Assembly: GCF_000143845.1 (NCBI RefSeq)
Contig: NC_014363.1
Location: 1,907,186-1,971,185 of the forward strand
DNA length: 64,000 bases
Source of the DNA: Olsenella uli DSM 7084
Lineage (GTDB): Bacteria; Actinomycetota; Coriobacteriia; Coriobacteriales; Atopobiaceae
Direction: 5' to 3'
This document shows positions 2,963 to 30,300 of the stretch, piece after piece (within the stretch, counting starts at the first letter, position 1; every line of letters starts with the position of its first letter). The notes below the pieces were generated by a model. That model did not search any database, was not told the DNA's origin, and saw only the letters and a program-made list of their open reading frames with translations. Both the position numbers and the translations under genes were made by a program.

Positions 2963-4399
2963 ATGCACGCCACCGCCACATCTCCCACCCCTGTCGGTGA
3001 GGATAGTTGCCATTATGAGAAGGTCGGCGGTGCCGAGCCCGCCTGCGTCGACCCCGAGCTGCCCTTCGACCTGCCGGATGGCTGGGAGTGGGCACGGCTA
3101 GGATCAATATCACTCGGAATCTCAACGGGACCATTTGGAAGCGCCCTGCACAAAGGCGACTATGTATCCCGTGGGGTGCCCATTGTTAATCCAGCGAACA
3201 TTTCTAATGGGCTGATAACTCCAACCTCCTTCGTATCGGAAGCCACGCGCGAAAGGCTAAGCTCCTATATCTTGTCATTGGGGGACCTGGTAATTGGGCG
3301 ACGGGGCGAAATGGGCCGCGTAGCCGTTGTTGGCGATGAATGTGTTGGTTGGTTGTGTGGCACCGGCTGCTTTATCGCGCGTTGTCCCGGAGGAGGGGAG
3401 CTTTCCTCTAACTTATTAAGTCTCGTATTCTCCTCGACGTATACAAAAGCCTTTCTCGAGGAAAACGCCATCGGCACAACAATGAAGAATCTTAGTAGGG
3501 AGATTCTGGGAGAGGTGCTCGTGCCCGTCCCGCCCCTCGCGGAGCAGCGCCGCATAGTCGTCGCCCTCGACGAGCTCCTTGGCCTCGTGGACGAGGTGGA
3601 GCGCTCCCAGGCGGAGCTCGAGGGGCTGCTGGACAGGGCGAGGGCGAAGGTCCTCGACCTCGCCATCCGCGGCAGGCTCGTCCCCCAGGACCCGTCCGAC
3701 GAACCCGCCGAGGCGCTCCTGGCCCGCGTGCGGGAGGAGAGGCTGCTCATGGCGGCCGACGGGAGGCTGAGGAGGAGGGACGTCGAGGGCGACTCGGTCA
3801 TCTTCCGCGGTGAGGATAACTCCTATTATGAGAAGGTCGGCGGCGCCGAGCCCGTCTGCGTCGACTCCGAGCTGCCCTTCGACCTGCCGGAAGGCTGGGA
3901 GTGGGCAAGACTGCCGTCTTTGTTCGTAATTGATCCACGATCGAGGCAAGATGATGTTGCCCTTGTCTCGTTTGCCCCGATGGCTTCAATCGATCCGGGC
4001 TTTACGTCACATGTGAAATATGAAGTCAGGCCGTGGGGAGAAGTCAAAAGGGGGTTCACTCACTTCGAAGAGGGCGACGTCCTGTTCGCGAAGATTTCGC
4101 CATGCTTTGAGAACAGGAAGTCCTTCGTCGCGGAGTCTCTTGAGAACAAGCACGGTGCGGGTACGACCGAGCTCATCGTGCTTAGGTGCATCTGCGGTAT
4201 GACGCCTTGGTTCGCGCTCTGCTTCCTGAAAAGCCCGACATTCATTGACGCCGCCAAGGGGACCTTCATGGGAACGGTAGGCCAGCAGCGGGTCAAACGG
4301 GAATTCATAGACAGCGTGTTGTTCCCAGTTCCTCCCCTATCGGAGCAGGCGCGAATCGCCAAGTCAGCATCCAAACTCCTAGACTCAATTGGGTTGTAG
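2963..4399 (+). CDS. Silent type I restriction specificity (HsdS) cassette with two TRDs
   Basis: Encodes two target-recognition domains separated by a central conserved helix region, but lacks the first 60 or so residues of a normal HsdS. Coding similarity to the expressed gene begins at inverted repeat A (2993) with GEDSCHYEKVGG. TRD1' follows (LGISTGPFGSALHKG region), then the conserved VPPLAEQRRIVVALDEL helix region encoded by repeat B, then TRD2' (LFVIDPRSRQDD region), ending in VPPLSEQARIAKSA. No plausible ribosome site or N-terminal constant region precedes it, so it is probably a donor of sequence rather than a working gene. It opposes the expressed hsdS and overlaps the third half-cassette by 15 bp, tail to tail. 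Confidence 0.85.
   Translation: MHATATSPTPVGEDSCHYEKVGGAEPACVDPELPFDLPDGWEWARLGSISLGISTGPFGSALHKGDYVSRGVPIVNPANISNGLITPTSFVSEATRERLSSYILSLGDLVIGRRGEMGRVAVVGDECVGWLCGTGCFIARCPGGGELSSNLLSLVFSSTYTKAFLEENAIGTTMKNLSREILGEVLVPVPPLAEQRRIVVALDELLGLVDEVERSQAELEGLLDRARAKVLDLAIRGRLVPQDPSDEPAEALLARVREERLLMAADGRLRRRDVEGDSVIFRGEDNSYYEKVGGAEPVCVDSELPFDLPEGWEWARLPSLFVIDPRSRQDDVALVSFAPMASIDPGFTSHVKYEVRPWGEVKRGFTHFEEGDVLFAKISPCFENRKSFVAESLENKHGAGTTELIVLRCICGMTPWFALCFLKSPTFIDAAKGTFMGTVGQQRVKREFIDSVLFPVPPLSEQARIAKSASKLLDSIGL
2993..3099 (+). repeat. Inverted repeat A, left copy (107 bp)
   Basis: Base-for-base identical, in inverted orientation, to 7083-7189. It encodes the start of TRD1 (GEDSCHYEKVGG to DGWEWARL) in both S loci. 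It begins with GTCGGTGAGG and ends with GGCACGGCT; identity stops abruptly on both sides. Inversion between the copies would exchange both TRDs at once and flip the recombinase. Confidence 0.97.
3518..3831 (+). repeat. Inverted repeat B, left copy (314 bp)
   Basis: Matches 6363-6676 in inverted orientation over 314 bp; every stretch I compared was identical. It encodes the central conserved helix region of HsdS and ends inside the TATTATGAGAAG core at the entrance to TRD2. Inversion between the copies would exchange TRD2 only. Confidence 0.95.
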
Positions 4400-8866: not shown

Positions 8867-11608
8867 CTATGCGACCAGGGCAAGACTCAAATCGTAAAGC
8901 AGCACTTCGTATCTATCCCCGAACAGTTCGTAATACCGACCAAGGCCACCTCTGTCTGCAAACGGGAAGAGCTCCAGGTCGTCCACGGTAACTTCTGCGC
9001 TTGTGGAAACGAAATCGCGTAGGTCTCTCAGCCACTCCATCTGCTCGTCCGTGAAGTGGCCGTGCCCCGCGTTCTCGGAGAAGACCCACTCCTTGAAACG
9101 CATCCTCACGTGGTCCGCGAAGGATATGAGGTCGTCCTCTTGCCCGATTTCGAAGCGCACGAGGGAGATGATGTCGGTGAGCTGATTGACAACGCTCTTC
9201 CTGGACACCTTGTCGGGACTTGTAATCTCGTAGGCATTCCACAACATCTCGTTCGAGAGGTGGTAGGGGGCTTCCTTGAGCCTGCTATAGACCTCCTTGA
9301 TCATCTTCAGAGTGAGGGGCCTCTGTCGATACGATTGGGAGTAGATGACCTGAAGGGCTTCCAGCTCGTCTTTGTTGTCGTCGAGGAACTCCCTGAAGGT
9401 CTTGATGGCATCGGCGGCACGCGCCTCGTGGTCGTCGTCCCATCCCACGAAGAGGACCGTGTCCAGGTTGACGTTGTCGATGATCTGATCGTGGGCTTTC
9501 CTGACGTTCTCGAGGTAGTTTCTAAGATCGGGATTGAGAATGGGCCCTATGGCCTCGTCGATGAGGGCATCCTGCACAGCGTCGAGGACGAATTCGCTCG
9601 GCATCTCATCCTCGAGCAGCATCGCAGGTTCGGTGATGAGGTCCATGTCGAATGCGTCCAGCATCTTGCGCGCAATCTCGTTGATCGGGACGCCGCCGGT
9701 CATCTCCTCGGCTTGCTTGCGCTCCTTCTCGGTCATCGCCCTGTCGAGCCTCAGGAGCCTGTTCGCCAGTGATGTCAGAGTATCCTCGTCCCTGGCGCCC
9801 ATCACCACGCTCATCATGAGGTCCTTGAGGCTTACGGTGGGCTTTCTCTCCAGTGGTCGCGTCTCTGTTTTGAGAGTCTTGGTGACCCCGACGGCGTCGA
9901 CGACGACGTACCTCACCTTGCTCGACCTGGCATCAGGGGTCACCTTCACGAGGTCATCGTATGGGAGAACGCGCCGCGCACGGCCGAGCATCTGCTCGAA
10001 GTAGTTCTTGGACCTGACGTCACGCATGAATAGGAGGCACTCGAGGGGCTTCACGTCCGTACCCGTGGCTATCATGTCGACAGTCACGGCGATTCGGGGA
10101 TTAAACCCATTGCGGAACTCGGAGAGGGTTGACTGGGGATCGTCCGCTTGGTGGGTGATCTTTTTGCAGAACTCGTTTCCCTGGCCGAACTCCTCGCGGA
10201 CAATGCGGATGATGTCGTCGGCATGGCTGTCGGTCTTGGCGAAGATCAAGGTCTTTGGCACCACGTCTCGCCCGGGGAATATCTCGGTGGTCACCTTCTC
10301 CTTGAACGTCCGTATGACCATTCTTATCTGCGACGGGTTCACTACGTCCCTGTCAAGCTTCGAGGGGTCGTAGGTTATGTCCTCGTCCATCTGCTCCCAT
10401 CTGAGCTGACGGGAGAGCCTGTCTCTCTTCTCGATGTACTGCTTGAGGATGGTTCCGCCCTTAGTGCCCACCTCAGTCTCAATGAGGAAGACGTCGCCAC
10501 CGACGTTGACGCCGTCGATGACTGCCTCCTCGTGGGTGTACTCGCTGACCACGTTCTGGTTGAAGAACGCGAACGTGCGCTTGTCGGGGGTTGCCGTGAG
10601 GCCGATGAGGAAGGCATCGAAGTAGTCGAGCACCTGCTGCCAGACGTTGTAGATGGAGCGATGGCACTCGTCGACTATCACGAAGTCGAAGAACTCGGGA
10701 GGATAGGCCGAGTTGTACTCAACCTCCCTAACCCCTCCTCTGACGTCGTGCTCGTTGGGGGACTCCTCCTCGTCGCGCTCGTCGAGATCCCGTCCCCTGA
10801 GGATGGAGTACATCCGCTGGATGGTGCTTATGCAGACGTCGGCATCCTTCGGTATGACCGACGAACTCAAACGGGCGACATTATAGAGCTCAGGGAACAA
10901 GCGGGCATCATCCCCAGGCTTGTACTTTCTGAACTCCTCCTCGGCCTGTATGCCGAGATTTCTCGTATCCACAAGGAAGAGAATCCTCTTCGCCCTTGCG
11001 AACTTGAGGAGACGGTAGACGTTCGTGATGGCGGTGTAGGTCTTTCCCGCACCGGTGGCCATCTGGATGAGCGATCGCGGCTTGTCCTCGGAGAACGACC
11101 GCTCGAGACCCCGAATCGCCTTCACTTGGCAGTCCCTGAACCCGGCCGGGTTGAGTTCCGGAAAGGCCTTCATCCGGTTCCTGAGAGTTGACGAGTCTGA
11201 CAGCCAGCTTTGGAGTTGCTCGGGCCTGTGGAAGGAGTACACCTCCCTAGAGCGGTAGTTGACATCCTGATAGTCACAGAAGTGCGTCAGGACATCGGTG
11301 GCTTCGTAAGCAAAGCGTATGTGGACTGAGCCCCTAGAATACTTCAGACCGCTCTCCGCGTACCTCTTCGACTGCTCAGCCACTGTCGTAAGTTGATGCC
11401 CCTTGTCGTGCGCCTTCGCCTCGATGACGCCGACCGGCACCCTGTCAATGAACAGGAGGTAGTCGACCGGACCTGAATTCGTGGGGTACTCACGTACTGC
11501 TACGCCAAACTTGGCTGCGGGATTGAGCTCGGACATGTCCTGGACAACATAGCCCGCCTGCTCGAGCTTCGCATCAATTTCCATCCGTGCTTTTTCCTCT
11601 GGATGCAT
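8867..11608 (-). CDS. hsdR: Type I restriction endonuclease subunit R
   Basis: Motor and nuclease subunit that translocates DNA and cleaves unmethylated DNA with HsdM/HsdS. The N-terminal PD-(D/E)xK nuclease shows D49 and E63-A-K65 (VGVIEAKAHD). The SF2 helicase domain shows Walker A ATGAGKT at 184-190, DECH at 313-316 and GLTATPDKRT shortly after. The C-terminal part is the usual helical HsdM-contact region. At 913 aa it is full length and every catalytic motif is present. It is preceded by a small RHH-like gene 10 bp upstream and followed directly by hsdM. Confidence 0.95.
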   Translation of the reverse strand: MHPEEKARMEIDAKLEQAGYVVQDMSELNPAAKFGVAVREYPTNSGPVDYLLFIDRVPVGVIEAKAHDKGHQLTTVAEQSKRYAESGLKYSRGSVHIRFAYEATDVLTHFCDYQDVNYRSREVYSFHRPEQLQSWLSDSSTLRNRMKAFPELNPAGFRDCQVKAIRGLERSFSEDKPRSLIQMATGAGKTYTAITNVYRLLKFARAKRILFLVDTRNLGIQAEEEFRKYKPGDDARLFPELYNVARLSSSVIPKDADVCISTIQRMYSILRGRDLDERDEEESPNEHDVRGGVREVEYNSAYPPEFFDFVIVDECHRSIYNVWQQVLDYFDAFLIGLTATPDKRTFAFFNQNVVSEYTHEEAVIDGVNVGGDVFLIETEVGTKGGTILKQYIEKRDRLSRQLRWEQMDEDITYDPSKLDRDVVNPSQIRMVIRTFKEKVTTEIFPGRDVVPKTLIFAKTDSHADDIIRIVREEFGQGNEFCKKITHQADDPQSTLSEFRNGFNPRIAVTVDMIATGTDVKPLECLLFMRDVRSKNYFEQMLGRARRVLPYDDLVKVTPDARSSKVRYVVVDAVGVTKTLKTETRPLERKPTVSLKDLMMSVVMGARDEDTLTSLANRLLRLDRAMTEKERKQAEEMTGGVPINEIARKMLDAFDMDLITEPAMLLEDEMPSEFVLDAVQDALIDEAIGPILNPDLRNYLENVRKAHDQIIDNVNLDTVLFVGWDDDHEARAADAIKTFREFLDDNKDELEALQVIYSQSYRQRPLTLKMIKEVYSRLKEAPYHLSNEMLWNAYEITSPDKVSRKSVVNQLTDIISLVRFEIGQEDDLISFADHVRMRFKEWVFSENAGHGHFTDEQMEWLRDLRDFVSTSAEVTVDDLELFPFADRGGLGRYYELFGDRYEVLLYDLSLALVA

Positions 11609-11618
11609 CTTTGTACTC

Positions 11619-11834
11619 CTAGGAGGTTATCTGGAGGCCGTCACGGCACTCGAATAACTCGGCATTTGCCTCAACCTCATCAACCACCAGGCTTGTTATC
11701 AATGCCGAAACGCTGATGCACCGGGACTCTGCGAGCACGGAGAGAGCATGCTTCAATTCTGGCGTTACAGCAAAGATGACGCGATCACTCTTCTTTCCGA
11801 GAAGCATCGTCTTCCGCAAGTCGCTGGCCTGCAT
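11619..11834 (-). CDS. Small ribbon-helix-helix-like protein heading the hsd operon
   Basis: A 71-aa protein with a central segment (DRVIFAVTPELKHALSVLAE) that fits a ribbon-helix-helix strand plus helix, followed by a second helix (SVSALITSLVVDEVE). The family assignment is inference from this pattern. GGAGG lies 5 bp before the ATG at 11834, so that start is preferred to the GTG at 11840. It lies 10 bp upstream of hsdR on the same strand and is probably cotranscribed. A role as autorepressor or controller of the restriction operon is plausible. There is no toxin partner beside it, so a toxin-antitoxin reading is not supported. Confidence 0.65.
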   Translation of the reverse strand: MQASDLRKTMLLGKKSDRVIFAVTPELKHALSVLAESRCISVSALITSLVVDEVEANAELFECRDGLQITS

Positions 11835-11840
11835 ATACAC

Positions 11841-11890
11841 CTCCGCATGACATACGATTTATATAAACGATACCACACTAATATAAGCGG
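11841..11890 (-). promoter_or_regulatory. AT-rich promoter/operator region of the RHH-hsdRMS operon
   Basis: A sharply AT-rich stretch in GC-rich surroundings, just upstream of the RHH start. It contains the 10-bp palindrome TTTATATAAA at 11858-11867 and a further TATA-rich block near 11880. A promoter overlapped by an operator for the RHH protein is inferred from position and composition. From 11891 to 12009 I see no gene. Confidence 0.45.
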
Positions 11891-12187
11891 TTTTATGACC
11901 AGACATCATCGAGATTAATTCAACGATTGGAAGTATCCCCGCCCACGGGCAGGGCCCGTCCCCGGGACCCCTCCCGGCCGCCACGCACAGCCGAGGTCAA
12001 GGGTCCCACTGTTGATGTTCACTAAGAAGTGACGCGAATGGTCATCGGGAACCGAGCACCGTGGTCATGAAGAATTGAGCAGTTTGGTCAGGAACTGGCC
12101 GTGCCCCGGGGCGTCAGGGACACGGCCAGAACTATGCTCTCCCGAGGTGCCGACCTTGGCGAGTGCCACCCCGGGAAAAAAGGGGAA

Positions 12188-25919: not shown

Positions 25920-26369
25920 TCAGCCAATCTTCTCCGCCATGAGGACATAGAGCTCGTGGGCGTTCGCACAGGCGCCAATCGCCTCGAGGAGCCGCTGGTC
26001 CTGGATGACCTCCATGAGGCGCCGGAGCATCTCGACCTGACCATGGGCCTCGAGCGCCAGCATGAAGAGCACGCGGGGACGCAGCGTGGTGTCGGGGTCG
26101 CCCATCATCTTGAGCTCGACGGGCTCTCTGAGCGTCACGATCGAGACGGCGGGCTCGTTGATGTGAGCCGGATCGCAATGCGGGATGGCGATGTCAAAGG
26201 CAACGGCGGGCAGCGCCGTGGGAAAGACCGCCTCCCGATCGACAATGGCCTGGGGGTAGCTGTCCTTGGCATATCCGGCGTCGACGAAGCCCTGGGCCAC
26301 TTTCCTGAGAGCTTCCTCGCCATCGTGCGCATCGAGACCAACCCGAACGAGCTCTTCCTTAAGCAGCAT
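25920..26369 (-). CDS. PTS sugar transporter EIIA, fructose/galactitol type
   Basis: Phosphocarrier that passes phosphate from HPr to an EIIB protein. A 149-aa PTS_EIIA type-2 domain with the active His at about residue 64 in DIAIPHCDPAHI, then LREPVELKMMGDP and VLFMLAL. The ATG at 26369 follows AAGGGAG. It stands alone, about 5 kb from the EIIC/EIIB genes at 30.9-32.7 kb that it plausibly serves. A 16-bp palindrome upstream suggests control by a GntR-type repressor. Confidence 0.88.
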   Translation of the reverse strand: MLLKEELVRVGLDAHDGEEALRKVAQGFVDAGYAKDSYPQAIVDREAVFPTALPAVAFDIAIPHCDPAHINEPAVSIVTLREPVELKMMGDPDTTLRPRVLFMLALEAHGQVEMLRRLMEVIQDQRLLEAIGACANAHELYVLMAEKIG

Positions 26370-26434
26370 GCACGTCTCCCTTCGCGCAGAGCGCCGCACG
26401 CGACGCTCCAGCGTTCCTTCCGCTCTAGAGCTTG

Positions 26435-26450
26435 TACATACTAGTATGTA
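26435..26450. promoter_or_regulatory. 16-bp perfect palindrome (TACATACTAGTATGTA) upstream of EIIA
   Basis: A perfect palindrome 65 bp upstream of the EIIA start. Its GT/TA/AC spacing resembles operators of GntR/HutC-type repressors. It is followed by a direct repeat TATAAGTAGTCAGA at 26449 and 26466 (period 17 bp). Operator function is inferred. Confidence 0.5.
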
Positions 26451-26481
26451 TAAGTAGTCAGACTCTATAAGTAGTCAGATT

Positions 26482-26517
26482 CCGCGCATGTGAGCCGCCA
26501 AGACTCCACATGCGCGG
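26482..26517. repeat. 11-bp perfect inverted repeat CCGCGCATGTG/CACATGCGCGG
   Basis: Two perfect 11-bp arms around a 14-nt spacer, in the divergent gap between EIIA and the LXG-like cassette. Could be a regulator site or RNA hairpin. 26570-26640 is AT-richer, with duplicated TAGCTTTAA, and is the likely promoter of the cassette. 26641-26882 holds nothing I recognise. Confidence 0.6.
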
Positions 26518-26882
26518 ACCACTGGAGCCCGCATGTGCAAGCTGCCAACCCCCGCGAGGCGCTTGCCTAGGGGAGTATAGCTTTAACCTAGCTTTAAATA
26601 ACTGGGGTGGCAATTCTTAGTATGATGAATGGCAAGGTCGGCACTGCCTTCCGTCTCTTGGACACGCCTTCCTCGAGGGGCGGGGCTTGTCATACCTGTC
26701 CGGCAGATCCACGGGCCGCCGTCCCTTCGTCGCCGCCCCGCTCCATCGAGGGCCACGCAGGCGAACTACGCCGCACAGGCCTTGCCCCAGCTCCGAGCGA
26801 GCCTACCCGCAGGACGGCGTGGACATGGGCAACAACGCGTCCGAGACATGGGAGGCGCCGCGTCCGGGGAGGGGGAAGCCCG

Positions 26883-27302
26883 ATGAACGTCGACGATTAC
26901 AGACGGATGCGCCTCGCACTCGAAGACCGCCTCTGGGGGAATCGAGAGAGCCGCGAGCGTGCCGAGCAGGGAAACGAGATCCTGGAGATGATCGGCCGCG
27001 ACATGCGCGCGTGGTCAGACGAGTTCGCCTACCTGACGCGCGGGATCCCCGACATGGACGCCAATGTGGCTGAGCTGCAGGATGGCGTGAACCGGTCCAT
27101 GCTCGACATAGCCTACGGCTGTGACGAGCGGCTGCAGGAGCTCGATGCCGAGAGGCGTTCCATCGAGGACCACATGGAGTCGCTCGACGGCGAGTTTGCC
27201 CGCTGGGCGCGCGACGAGCGGGAGGCGGGCGGCACCCCTGGTGCGCCCGATGCAGGATGGGGAGGCAACCCAGGATGGGGAGGTGGCCGCTATGACAGGT
27301 GA
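26883..27302 (+). CDS. Small helical protein, DUF5082/YwqH-like, first gene of LXG-like cassette
   Basis: A 139-aa, mostly helical protein with long amphipathic helices (RRMRLALEDRLWGNRESRER and QELDAERRSIEDHMESLD) and a Gly/Trp-rich tail (GWGGNPGWGGG). No signal peptide or membrane segment. By size, helical content and position it fits the DUF5082-type helper that precedes LXG effectors in cassettes such as ywqHIJK of Bacillus; this is inference from context. The ATG at 26883 follows GGGGAGGGGG. It overlaps the next gene by 11 bp. Confidence 0.6.
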   Translation: MNVDDYRRMRLALEDRLWGNRESRERAEQGNEILEMIGRDMRAWSDEFAYLTRGIPDMDANVAELQDGVNRSMLDIAYGCDERLQELDAERRSIEDHMESLDGEFARWARDEREAGGTPGAPDAGWGGNPGWGGGRYDR

Positions 27303-27549
27303 CGGCGAGAGGCTCTCGAACGAGGACCTCGCCAGGTCGTATACGGACAGCATCACCACCGACTTCGAGGCCGAAGAGGTCGGAGGCGTCGACGGCGACA
27401 ACACGAGCGCCGCCGCGGGTGCCAAGAGCATGGCAGACGCCATACGCTCGCTCATGGCAGGCGCGGCAACCGAGGTGAACCTGGACGCAGCGGCAATCAG
27501 CGGCGTCGCTGGCGACTTTGCCGCCTGGGACGAGCTCATGTCCCGCTGA
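27292..27549 (+). CDS. Small WXG100/DUF5344-like protein of LXG-like cassette
   Basis: An 85-aa acidic, helical protein starting at the ATG at 27292 inside the end of the previous gene. The size and helix-turn-helix character fit the WXG100-like or DUF5344 helpers that bind the N-terminal helices of LXG effectors and guide them to a type VII secretion system. No WXG motif is present, so assignment rests on context. It ends 13 bp before the large effector-like gene, whose ribosome site lies in that gap. Confidence 0.55.
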   Translation: MTGDGERLSNEDLARSYTDSITTDFEAEEVGGVDGDNTSAAAGAKSMADAIRSLMAGAATEVNLDAAAISGVAGDFAAWDELMSR

Positions 27550-27562
27550 GAAGGAGGGGCGC

Positions 27563-29413
27563 ATGGGGGCGATCATCAGACCAGCCGAACTCATCTCGAT
27601 GCTCGACAGGAAGTCGGCCATGATGGACAGGGCCGGCGAAGAGTGCTCGGAGCGTCGACAAGCGGTGAGCGAGTTTTGCAACGACACCTACCTCACGGCC
27701 GAGGCGTGGGACGCAGCACGCAGTCGGCTCAGCAACTACAGCGTGCTCTACGCGGGCATCACAGAGGCCCTCGAGAGGGTCAGGTCGGCAGACGACACGG
27801 TCAGGGGCGCGCTCTCGTCCAACTTTGGAGCCGTCGCCGAGGTCAACGAGGACGAGTACGTACGGAAGAGGGACGAAGCCCAGAACATGCTCGACAGGAT
27901 CGCAGAGCTGGAATGCACGCCCTACGGCAACGACCCTGGCTTCAGCGCCGGGCTCTCGCTCATGCGCTACTGGTGCGACCGAGCTCGCATCGCCGCCCAA
28001 GACATGCTCGACAGGATCGCGGACTACCTGGGCACCACCAACGGGATCTACGAGGGCGCCGGCTCCTGCTCCGACATGCTCGCCACGCTGGCCAGGGGCA
28101 CGGCCTCCCTATCAGGATCCGAGTTCAGCAAGAGCGGCGTCGGTTGGCCCAGCGCGGCGGACGCGAGCTGGATCGGCGAGCTCAAGGACATGCTTGGGAG
28201 CAACGTCAAGTCCCTCGAGGACCTGTACAGCAACGGCGAGCTCGATGACGGGACGCTCGAGGGGATCTTCGACAGGCCCGTCGAGCTGTGGACCGACGGG
28301 GAGGCGACCGCCGTCGCGCAGCTCTACCGGAGGGCGGGCAGCCAAGCCGTCGGAGGCGACTCCACGCTGCTCGAGCGGTTCCTCAACGACGGCTATTGGT
28401 CATGCGAGGGGATGCGCCATATCGGCTATTCGAACTACCAGAGCCCCAACGAGATCTATATGGTCCGATACTCCATGCGGGACGGCCTCGCGGGGTTCCT
28501 CTCCGCCTATGCCGTCGCAACGACATCAGCCGCCTTTCAGGCCAACTCCCCGCTGGGCGACACAGAGAGGCTCCTCGCGAGCACCGCGGCGGGCCTCCTT
28601 GCCAGCGGGAGAACCTACACGCGCACCAAGGGCTTCGACTCGTACACCACTGCGGCAGCCGCCCTCAAGGAGCTGGGCCCCAACCTGAGCGTGAGCTACA
28701 ACAGATCCGAGACCGTCCAAGACGGCAAGGGCGAGGAGCACACATACACCTACACGGAGGTCACATACGGAGGGCAAGTGGACGTCTCGGCCGACGGAGG
28801 GGGCAGTCTCTACTCCCACGGCGGCTTCGTCGCAATGACCGCGACGACAGACGTCAACGCCGCGTTCTCCGAGATGCGCGACATCGTCGCGGGCAGGAAC
28901 TACAAGAACGAGTACCAAGCCGCCGGGGAGGGCTTCTGGGGTGCCGCCGGCGACGCGGTCACTGGCAAGGTCCTCGACGGCGTTCCCGTCCTCGGCACCG
29001 CGAGGAGCCTGGTCACCAGCACCGTCGAAAGCTACAGAGAGCAAAGTGCCGCCAACCATTCGATAGACACCGTCTTCGAGCTCGACCGGGCGGACACGGA
29101 AGCCCATTACAGCTTCTACGAGTACGGCACGCTCGTCTCGGACGCAAGCGGGGACGGCGCATACGTCGTGGCCCCCGGGTTTGCCAACGACGGGGATCGC
29201 CAGAAATTCACCAATGCATACAGCCAATATCGCTACGACAACACCAATGGTGGTACCACCTATGACAGCTACCTCGACTGGGCGCGATCGAAGCCCGAGG
29301 GTAGATACTCGATGACTTCCTCAGAAACTTGGATTGGTATGGAACCTCCGAACAACTATGAGATTGCAAATAACCCAGATTCCTTTGTCTGGGGTGATTC
29401 GAGTGCTAAGTGA
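27563..29413 (+). CDS. Putative LXG-type type VII secretion effector (polymorphic toxin candidate)
   Basis: A 616-aa protein with no signal peptide. The N-terminal 200 residues are helical (SMLDRKSAMMDRAGEECSER, then AWDAARSRLSNYSVLYAGI), closely resembling the LXG-domain pattern of a long helical export domain. The middle part is Ala/Gly-rich, with a short hydrophobic stretch near GFLSAYAVATTSAAFQA. The C-terminal 170 or so residues (from GKVLDGVPVLGTARSL to the end) show no nuclease, ADP-ribosylation or deaminase motif that I recognise. AAGGAGGGGC precedes the ATG. It is followed by a lipoprotein gene that may supply immunity. Effector identity is inferred from N-terminal shape and gene order; the toxin activity, if any, is unknown. 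Confidence 0.6.
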   Translation: MGAIIRPAELISMLDRKSAMMDRAGEECSERRQAVSEFCNDTYLTAEAWDAARSRLSNYSVLYAGITEALERVRSADDTVRGALSSNFGAVAEVNEDEYVRKRDEAQNMLDRIAELECTPYGNDPGFSAGLSLMRYWCDRARIAAQDMLDRIADYLGTTNGIYEGAGSCSDMLATLARGTASLSGSEFSKSGVGWPSAADASWIGELKDMLGSNVKSLEDLYSNGELDDGTLEGIFDRPVELWTDGEATAVAQLYRRAGSQAVGGDSTLLERFLNDGYWSCEGMRHIGYSNYQSPNEIYMVRYSMRDGLAGFLSAYAVATTSAAFQANSPLGDTERLLASTAAGLLASGRTYTRTKGFDSYTTAAAALKELGPNLSVSYNRSETVQDGKGEEHTYTYTEVTYGGQVDVSADGGGSLYSHGGFVAMTATTDVNAAFSEMRDIVAGRNYKNEYQAAGEGFWGAAGDAVTGKVLDGVPVLGTARSLVTSTVESYREQSAANHSIDTVFELDRADTEAHYSFYEYGTLVSDASGDGAYVVAPGFANDGDRQKFTNAYSQYRYDNTNGGTTYDSYLDWARSKPEGRYSMTSSETWIGMEPPNNYEIANNPDSFVWGDSSAK

Positions 29414-29427
29414 CGGGGAGGCGGATT

Positions 29428-30300
29428 GTGAGGAAACTAGGGGATGCCGCACGCCAAGCGATATTTGCTCTCGCAGCGATTACTGTCATGCTCGTCGCCG
29501 CCCTCCTCTGCGGCTGCGATGCGGGCTCACCGGAGGACCATAGTGGGGAGTGGTTCGTCATAGGAAGCCAGGGCGAGCCCGTCGGCACGGCCCGCTTCTC
29601 CGACGCCGACGGGTACGGCTTCGCGGCCAACGGGCTCGCAGCCGTGGAGGATGAGGAGACTGGCCTGTGGGGCTTCGTCGACGAGACGGGATCCTGGGCC
29701 GTCGAGCCGGCGTTCCTCAGAGCCCGCAAGTTCGCACCCAACGGACTGGCGGCGGCACAGGACGCAGAGACCGGCAGATGGGGCTTCGTCGACGAGACGG
29801 GATCCTGGGCCATAGAGCCCCGATACGCGGACGCCTGGTCGTTCTACGACAACGGCACGACGCAGGTACAGGACGAGTCGAGCCTCGACATCGTCTGGCT
29901 GGACGAGGAGGGCAAGGTCGTCGAGGGCGCAACCGCCGTGCGCCCGTGGGCCAGGAAGGACGACGGGACAGGGTTGTACGGCATCGCGGCGGCCGGCGGG
30001 GACTGGCTGTGCGAGCCTGCCTTCTCCTACCTGCAGACCGACCGCCACTCCGACTACCTCCTCGCCCGGCCGCAGGGCTCGGGGCTCTGCGGCGTCGTCG
30101 ACGCGGGCGGCGCTTGGGTCGTCGGGCCCGCCTACGCCGACCTGGTCGTCGCCTTCGACGCCGACCCGCTTGCGGCGAAGGACCCCGAGACGGGACTCTG
30201 GGGCTACGTCGGCTGGGACGTCGGCTGGGTGGTACAGCCGGCCTTCTCCGACGCGACGCGCATGGGCGACAACGGACACGCGCTCGCGAGGATGCCCTGA
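29428..30300 (+). CDS. WG-repeat lipoprotein, possible immunity protein
   Basis: Begins with a basic N-terminus and hydrophobic helix ending in a lipobox-like LLCGC with Cys at about residue 30, so it should be exported and lipid-anchored to the outer face of the membrane. The mature part is built of repeats of the WG type: GLWGFVDETGSWAVEPAF, GRWGFVDETGSWAIEPRY, GLCGVVDAGGAWVVGPAY and GLWGYVGWDVGWVVQPAF. I chose the GTG at 29428, with GGGAGG upstream, rather than a GTG overlapping the previous stop. It directly follows the LXG-like gene, the usual place for an immunity gene; that role is inferred. Confidence 0.75.
   Translation: MRKLGDAARQAIFALAAITVMLVAALLCGCDAGSPEDHSGEWFVIGSQGEPVGTARFSDADGYGFAANGLAAVEDEETGLWGFVDETGSWAVEPAFLRARKFAPNGLAAAQDAETGRWGFVDETGSWAIEPRYADAWSFYDNGTTQVQDESSLDIVWLDEEGKVVEGATAVRPWARKDDGTGLYGIAAAGGDWLCEPAFSYLQTDRHSDYLLARPQGSGLCGVVDAGGAWVVGPAYADLVVAFDADPLAAKDPETGLWGYVGWDVGWVVQPAFSDATRMGDNGHALARMP

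Follow-up and report, generated by a model that had tools for sequence, protein, structure and literature searches.

A putative LXG-type effector cassette with a WG-repeat lipoprotein in Olsenella uli DSM 7084, encoded apart from its type VII secretion locus

The chromosome of Olsenella uli DSM 7084 (NC_014363.1) is a single contig of 2,051,896 bp, and the stretch considered here, called the window, comprises 64 kb of it (positions 1,907,186–1,971,185). Within the window lies a cassette of four co-oriented genes on the + strand, described below in window positions. The first gene, g1 (26883–27302, protein P0001), encodes a helical helper of 139 amino acids (aa) that is Lap2-like by size and position, and the second, g2 (27292–27549, P0002), an 85-aa putative targeting helper of the Lap1 type with a D-N-T turn motif and a C-terminal FxxxD. 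They are followed by g3 (27563–29413, P0003), the gene of a predicted LXG-type effector of 616 aa, and by g4 (29410–30300), which has a GTG start (an alternative in-frame GTG is found at 29428) and encodes a WG-repeat lipoprotein of 296 aa, the proposed immunity protein. The genes have plausible ribosome-binding sites and their junctions are tight or overlapping. This arrangement at 26883–30300 had been proposed from the letters and open reading frames without database searches (the sequence-only reading), and all of the frames are indeed present, in an arrangement far from what chance would give. We consider it probable that g3 is an antibacterial effector of the type VII secretion system d (T7SSd) that the host itself possesses, and that the other genes provide export helpers and an immunity protein.

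The four genes constitute one unit, because a 3.45-kb block recurs in another genus amid unrelated flanking DNA. The only relative of P0003 returned by contig search belongs to Olsenella sp. Marseille-P4559 (contig NZ_LR027573.1, locus L006), a member of that other genus, and is 92% identical at the protein level. Aligned as DNA, this locus matches the window from 26847 to 30291, with 90% identity and with unrelated flanks on both sides; this is the sole block of the contig that aligns. Since Mfd, a housekeeping protein, shows 78% identity between the two organisms, as against 90% (DNA) and 92% (P0003 protein) for the cassette, acquisition by horizontal transfer between genera of one family is probable from these identities. 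No obvious flanking repeat or tRNA hinting at integration was seen at the cassette ends. In the Marseille-P4559 locus the lipoprotein gene is present in approximately four tandem copies, some of them incomplete or broken by masked bases.

The N-terminal domain of P0003 (residues 1–215, 27563–28207, + strand) is linked to the LXG family by a bridging profile. Profile A2, made of eight sequences (the P0003 N-domain and relatives), matches the proteins L074 (E 2.6e-12) and L075 (E 5e-9), both of which exceed the Pfam cut-off for LXG (PF04740; 31.9 and 27.2 bits vs. 26.5). The AlphaFold2 model of residues 1–215 is confident and helical (predicted local distance difference test, pLDDT, ~82), and in a Foldseek comparison with 350,542 PDB chains its top match was the LXG domain of TelA (8gmh, prob 1.00, TMt 0.62). 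The LXG-like character of the N-terminus, which the sequence-only reading had suggested, is thus supported by the bridging profile and the predicted fold. The PDB sequence search, performed with the N-domain profile and a profile of the C-terminal part, returned coiled-coil spike proteins and noise only. The same 215 residues recur in a second O. uli gene and in other genera, in front of different C-termini, including glycine-zipper regions (L023, L024, L025), Rhs proteins of ~1,600 aa (L026, L027) and several unassigned kinds, and the variation of the C-terminus anticipated by the sequence-only reading is therefore seen among both paralogues and relatives. The second O. uli gene is part of a smaller cassette (L023:7978–10423; G000:C1, ~421977–424422) comprising a Lap1-like gene of 83 aa, an effector of 476 aa whose C-terminus is of the glycine-zipper type and, downstream, a hydrophobic protein that is likely the immunity protein of that effector.

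The g2 family, a member of which immediately precedes most of the related effectors, has a conserved turn motif and, at the C-terminus, FxxxD or xxxxD. Among its 16 members, 12 match TIGR04197 (Lap1) weakly at E<=1, the best with E 7.5e-5. P0002 carries FAAWD near its C-terminus, and its D-N-T...G turn resembles, but is not identical to, DxxTxxxGN. In Lap1 the FxxxD motif is required for export of the partner toxin and dispensable for complex formation (PMC9600955). Helical proteins of 102–135 aa adjoin the effectors of the relatives, two of them scoring weakly to DUF3958 (0.018 and 0.55). By analogy with LXG–Lap complexes, g1 and g2 would be expected to bring g3 to EssC and so allow its export.

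There are no type VII secretion genes within the window, and the sequence-only reading had expected the machinery elsewhere in the genome. A T7SSd locus is located on the same chromosome at ~1.745–1.763 Mb, ~150 kb upstream of the cassette. It encodes a Ser/Thr kinase (TsdD), an Ig-like surface protein, a WXG100 protein (TsdA, E 1e-19), an EssC-type ATPase (TsdC) with an FHA domain, a second WXG100-like protein and a WXG100-Rhs protein. The ATPase scores 694 bits, below the cut-off of 778, which was set for Firmicutes EssC. The locus, including its Rhs protein, agrees with the published account of the O. uli locus (PMC11217815). EssC is present in all nine genomes with an N-domain match at E ~5e-8 or better, compared with 48 of 400 Coriobacteriia overall (Fisher P 2.5e-9, and 7e-7 at the genus level, kinship being unaccounted for in either value); two weak N-domain matches (6e-4) fall in EssC-negative genomes. 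In genome G406 an effector, a Lap1-like gene and a WG lipoprotein gene are placed between the EssC and kinase genes inside the T7SSd operon, and in G039 an Rhs-type effector directly follows EssC and two small helical genes in the T7SSd operon.

The product of g4 was predicted to be a lipoprotein already in the sequence-only reading, and it has a signal peptide and a lipobox (LCGC). In addition, it is a clear member of the WG_beta_rep family (PF14903; E 1.1e-18, 67.4 bits vs. a cut-off of 25.6). The gene following an effector with the middle domain of P0003 (described below) encodes a WG-repeat protein in four of the four readable lineages (the window with its L006 orthologue, L028, L033 and L071), as against none of nine lineages in which the effectors carry other C-termini (P 0.0014). 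WG lipoproteins like g4 would thus be an apparently new type of immunity partner; our literature search found no paper tying WG repeats to type VII immunity. A second WG lipoprotein is encoded near the T7SSd locus of O. uli itself. Downstream of the T7SSd locus of G039 (L086 and L087, G039:C1:938000–966000) several WG-repeat proteins are found in a stretch resembling an orphan immunity island, which also holds an Rhs protein 86% identical to one at the O. uli T7SSd locus. In L033 (10866–12356) the end of the WG lipoprotein, GSGSKGYEDWLEDR, closely resembles that of the neighbouring effector, GSKSYEDWLDEQK, which may reflect recombination or mimicry.

The sequence-only reading saw no known toxin motif in the C-terminal ~170 residues of P0003. 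Indeed, residues 215–616 gave no family or sequence match in Pfam, NCBIfam or the PDB sequence search and matched no toxin family, and a plasmid search with residues 200–616 gave no match; the extent has to be revised, as the variable part begins near residue 215 and is ~400 aa long. Its helical middle domain (residues ~215–360, 28205–28642, + strand) is shared with the full-length protein of L028, the L033 effector (pairwise shuffle Z 9.0) and L071 (Z 12.4), and control C-termini gave Z near 0 in these tests. It is also found in a truncated protein at the type VII locus L032, behind a different, WXG-like N-terminus. The C-terminal segment (residues ~424–616, 28832–29410, + strand), the candidate toxin tip, is shared with L028 (Z 10) and with an orphan fragment of 118 aa in L033; the similarity to the L033 effector is less certain (Z 4). 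This effector had a poor score with A3, a small profile (16/1000 shuffles), and a strong one in the pairwise comparison with P0003 (Z 9, 0/1000); as L028 and L033 are not significantly similar to each other (Z 1.5), it is counted as a member on the strength of P0003 and L032. Structure prediction, proposed along with the sequence-only reading, gave a mean pLDDT of 40 for residues 200–616, too poor for fold comparison.

Some apparent similarities to P0003 were rejected: the weak matches to GH3 beta-glucosidases (L029–L031) and to a lipoprotein-like toxin protein (L034) were regarded as chance, and the C-terminus of L074, alike by eye with a common SYxDW...SKP ending, failed the shuffle tests. 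In G060 two nearby effectors (L032:9081–10292 and 11151–12069) have WXG-like N-termini that are 86% identical over 107 aa and bodies that differ. One of the two carries the P0003 middle domain, which thus has been swapped between unrelated export domains.

For export, toxicity, immunity and the compartment of action we infer the following course. In the cytoplasm g1 and g2, the latter with its FxxxD signal, would associate with the N-terminal, LXG-like helical part of g3, and the complex would be recruited to the EssC-type ATPase (TsdC) from the T7SSd locus, 150 kb distant. The effector would then be exported to a neighbouring cell, residues 215–616 would act there, and g4, a lipoprotein on the external side of the membrane, would bind and neutralize the incoming toxin. 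Because such a neutralizer would reside outside the membrane, the target most probably lies at the membrane or beyond it (membrane integrity or wall precursors) and not in the cytoplasm. A membrane-disturbing or wall-precursor activity is accordingly our preferred guess by analogy, although a weakly held one. The peak hydrophobicity of P0003 is 1.15 compared with 1.7–2.2 in the glycine-zipper relatives, and the lack of an equally hydrophobic segment speaks slightly against a simple pore. The stronger proposal, that residues 215–616 represent a new class of envelope-acting antibacterial toxins and that WG lipoproteins are a dedicated, array-forming immunity family across the T7SSd loci of Coriobacteriia, we regard as evenly poised between holding and failing.

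Several results weigh against this interpretation. P0003 had no match in Pfam at E<=1 or in NCBIfam and did not reach the PF04740 cut-off, and a scan of the O. uli genome with PF04740 gave no match at E<=1. The Foldseek E value for 8gmh is modest (1.9e-3), with long helical BAR proteins ranking close behind. The L-x-G motif reads LTA in P0003 and in the Marseille-P4559 orthologue; the relatives keep it as LTG, LQG, LNG, LSG or LKG. P0002, for which Pfam and NCBIfam scans gave nothing, does not match TIGR04197, and P0001 matched no family in Pfam or NCBIfam, DUF3958 (PF13125, Lap2) included. Finally, WG proteins are also present in genomes that lack EssC (10 of 17 in the family), which means that the repeats are not confined to immunity and have other uses too.

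This last distribution would also suit a T7SSd effector of the LXG type whose toxin acts in the cytoplasm of the target cell, the WG lipoprotein being not, or not only, the immunity protein and protection being provided by a Lap-like helper or some other gene. Separate cytoplasmic and extracellular immunity families are found for EsxX of Staphylococcus aureus (PMC12744356), and the tip domain of g3 matches no known family, both of which fit such a scheme. The WG pairing is nevertheless specific to the middle-domain class, the WG gene is duplicated in tandem beside the toxin and no further gene travels in the 3.45-kb unit, and we find a cytoplasmic toxin unlikely. The missing toxin motif in g3 would also be expected of an exported protein that is not a toxin at all, such as an adhesin or a nutrient-binding or signalling protein with the WG lipoprotein as its receptor, and type VII substrates whose roles are not toxic have been reported (PMC12607788). 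Yet the same N-domain precedes C-termini of the glycine-zipper and Rhs kinds, which are typical of antibacterial toxins. Tandem arrays of the lipoprotein gene, horizontal transfer and an orphan C-terminal fragment next to a WG gene are likewise typical of toxin–immunity pairs, and we find a non-toxic role improbable. The replacement of LxG by LTA in both P0003 and its orthologue raises the question of whether the system works in this strain, export having been lost through decay of the motif or through a silent T7SSd. Against this, the four frames are open here, g1–g3 and at least one lipoprotein gene are open in the other genus, where the DNA is 90% identical, and the T7SSd genes are open as well; the orthologue also has LTA, indicating that the change is tolerated. 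Loss of function therefore appears very improbable, and an antibacterial T7SSd effector with helpers and an immunity protein is the explanation we prefer.

Around the cassette, no promoter beyond chance was found. A tandem 17-bp repeat, TATAAGTAGTCAGAxTC (26449–26482), is located between the cassette and a divergent gene for EIIA of the phosphotransferase system (PTS; 25920–26399, - strand) and is possibly an operator. Elsewhere in the window, specificity and endonuclease subunits of type I restriction–modification are encoded at 2963–4399 and 8867–11608.

T7SSd was named in 2024 from genome context (PMC11217815), and few substrates have been proposed for it. The cassette is a concrete candidate for a T7SSd substrate with helpers that is encoded apart from the machinery, and the profile finds more of its kind. 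If WG lipoproteins do confer immunity, an uncharacterized repeat family would gain a role and orphan WG arrays near T7SSd loci could be read as resistance islands.

Among known systems, the YwqHIJK layout of Bacillus subtilis consists of two helpers, an LXG toxin and a downstream neutralizer. The sequence-only reading had compared the cassette with it and with the families DUF5082 and DUF5344. The order of helpers and effector holds approximately, but the families do not, as neither g1 nor g2 gave any score to DUF5082 or DUF5344; because g2 is TIGR04197/Lap1-like, the layout is closer to that of telC and telD (Lap1, Lap2, LXG toxin, immunity). The T7SSd study of O. uli (Garrett, Higginson and Palmer 2024, PMC11217815) concerns the same machinery. 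In its passages on substrates, those considered are encoded at the T7SSd locus, namely the Rhs substrate of O. uli and an LXG-like protein of Olsenella sp. HMSC062G07; the present cassette lies 150 kb off, and those passages mention neither it nor immunity by WG lipoproteins. The TelC and TelD cassettes of the Streptococcus intermedius T7SSb (PMC9600955) likewise have a pair of small helical helpers (FxxxD in one of them), an LXG-type effector, an immunity gene and a polymorphic C-terminus. Here, the system is the T7SSd of Actinomycetota, the helper order is reversed with the Lap2-like gene first, P0003 is below Pfam LXG detection and has the LTA motif, the toxin domain has no sequence link to a known one, and the candidate immunity protein is a WG-repeat lipoprotein. 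TelC is a lipid II phosphatase on the outer face of the membrane and its immunity protein TipC faces outward (PMC10765036), as is proposed for g4, although TipC is a single-pass membrane protein and g4 a WG-repeat lipoprotein.

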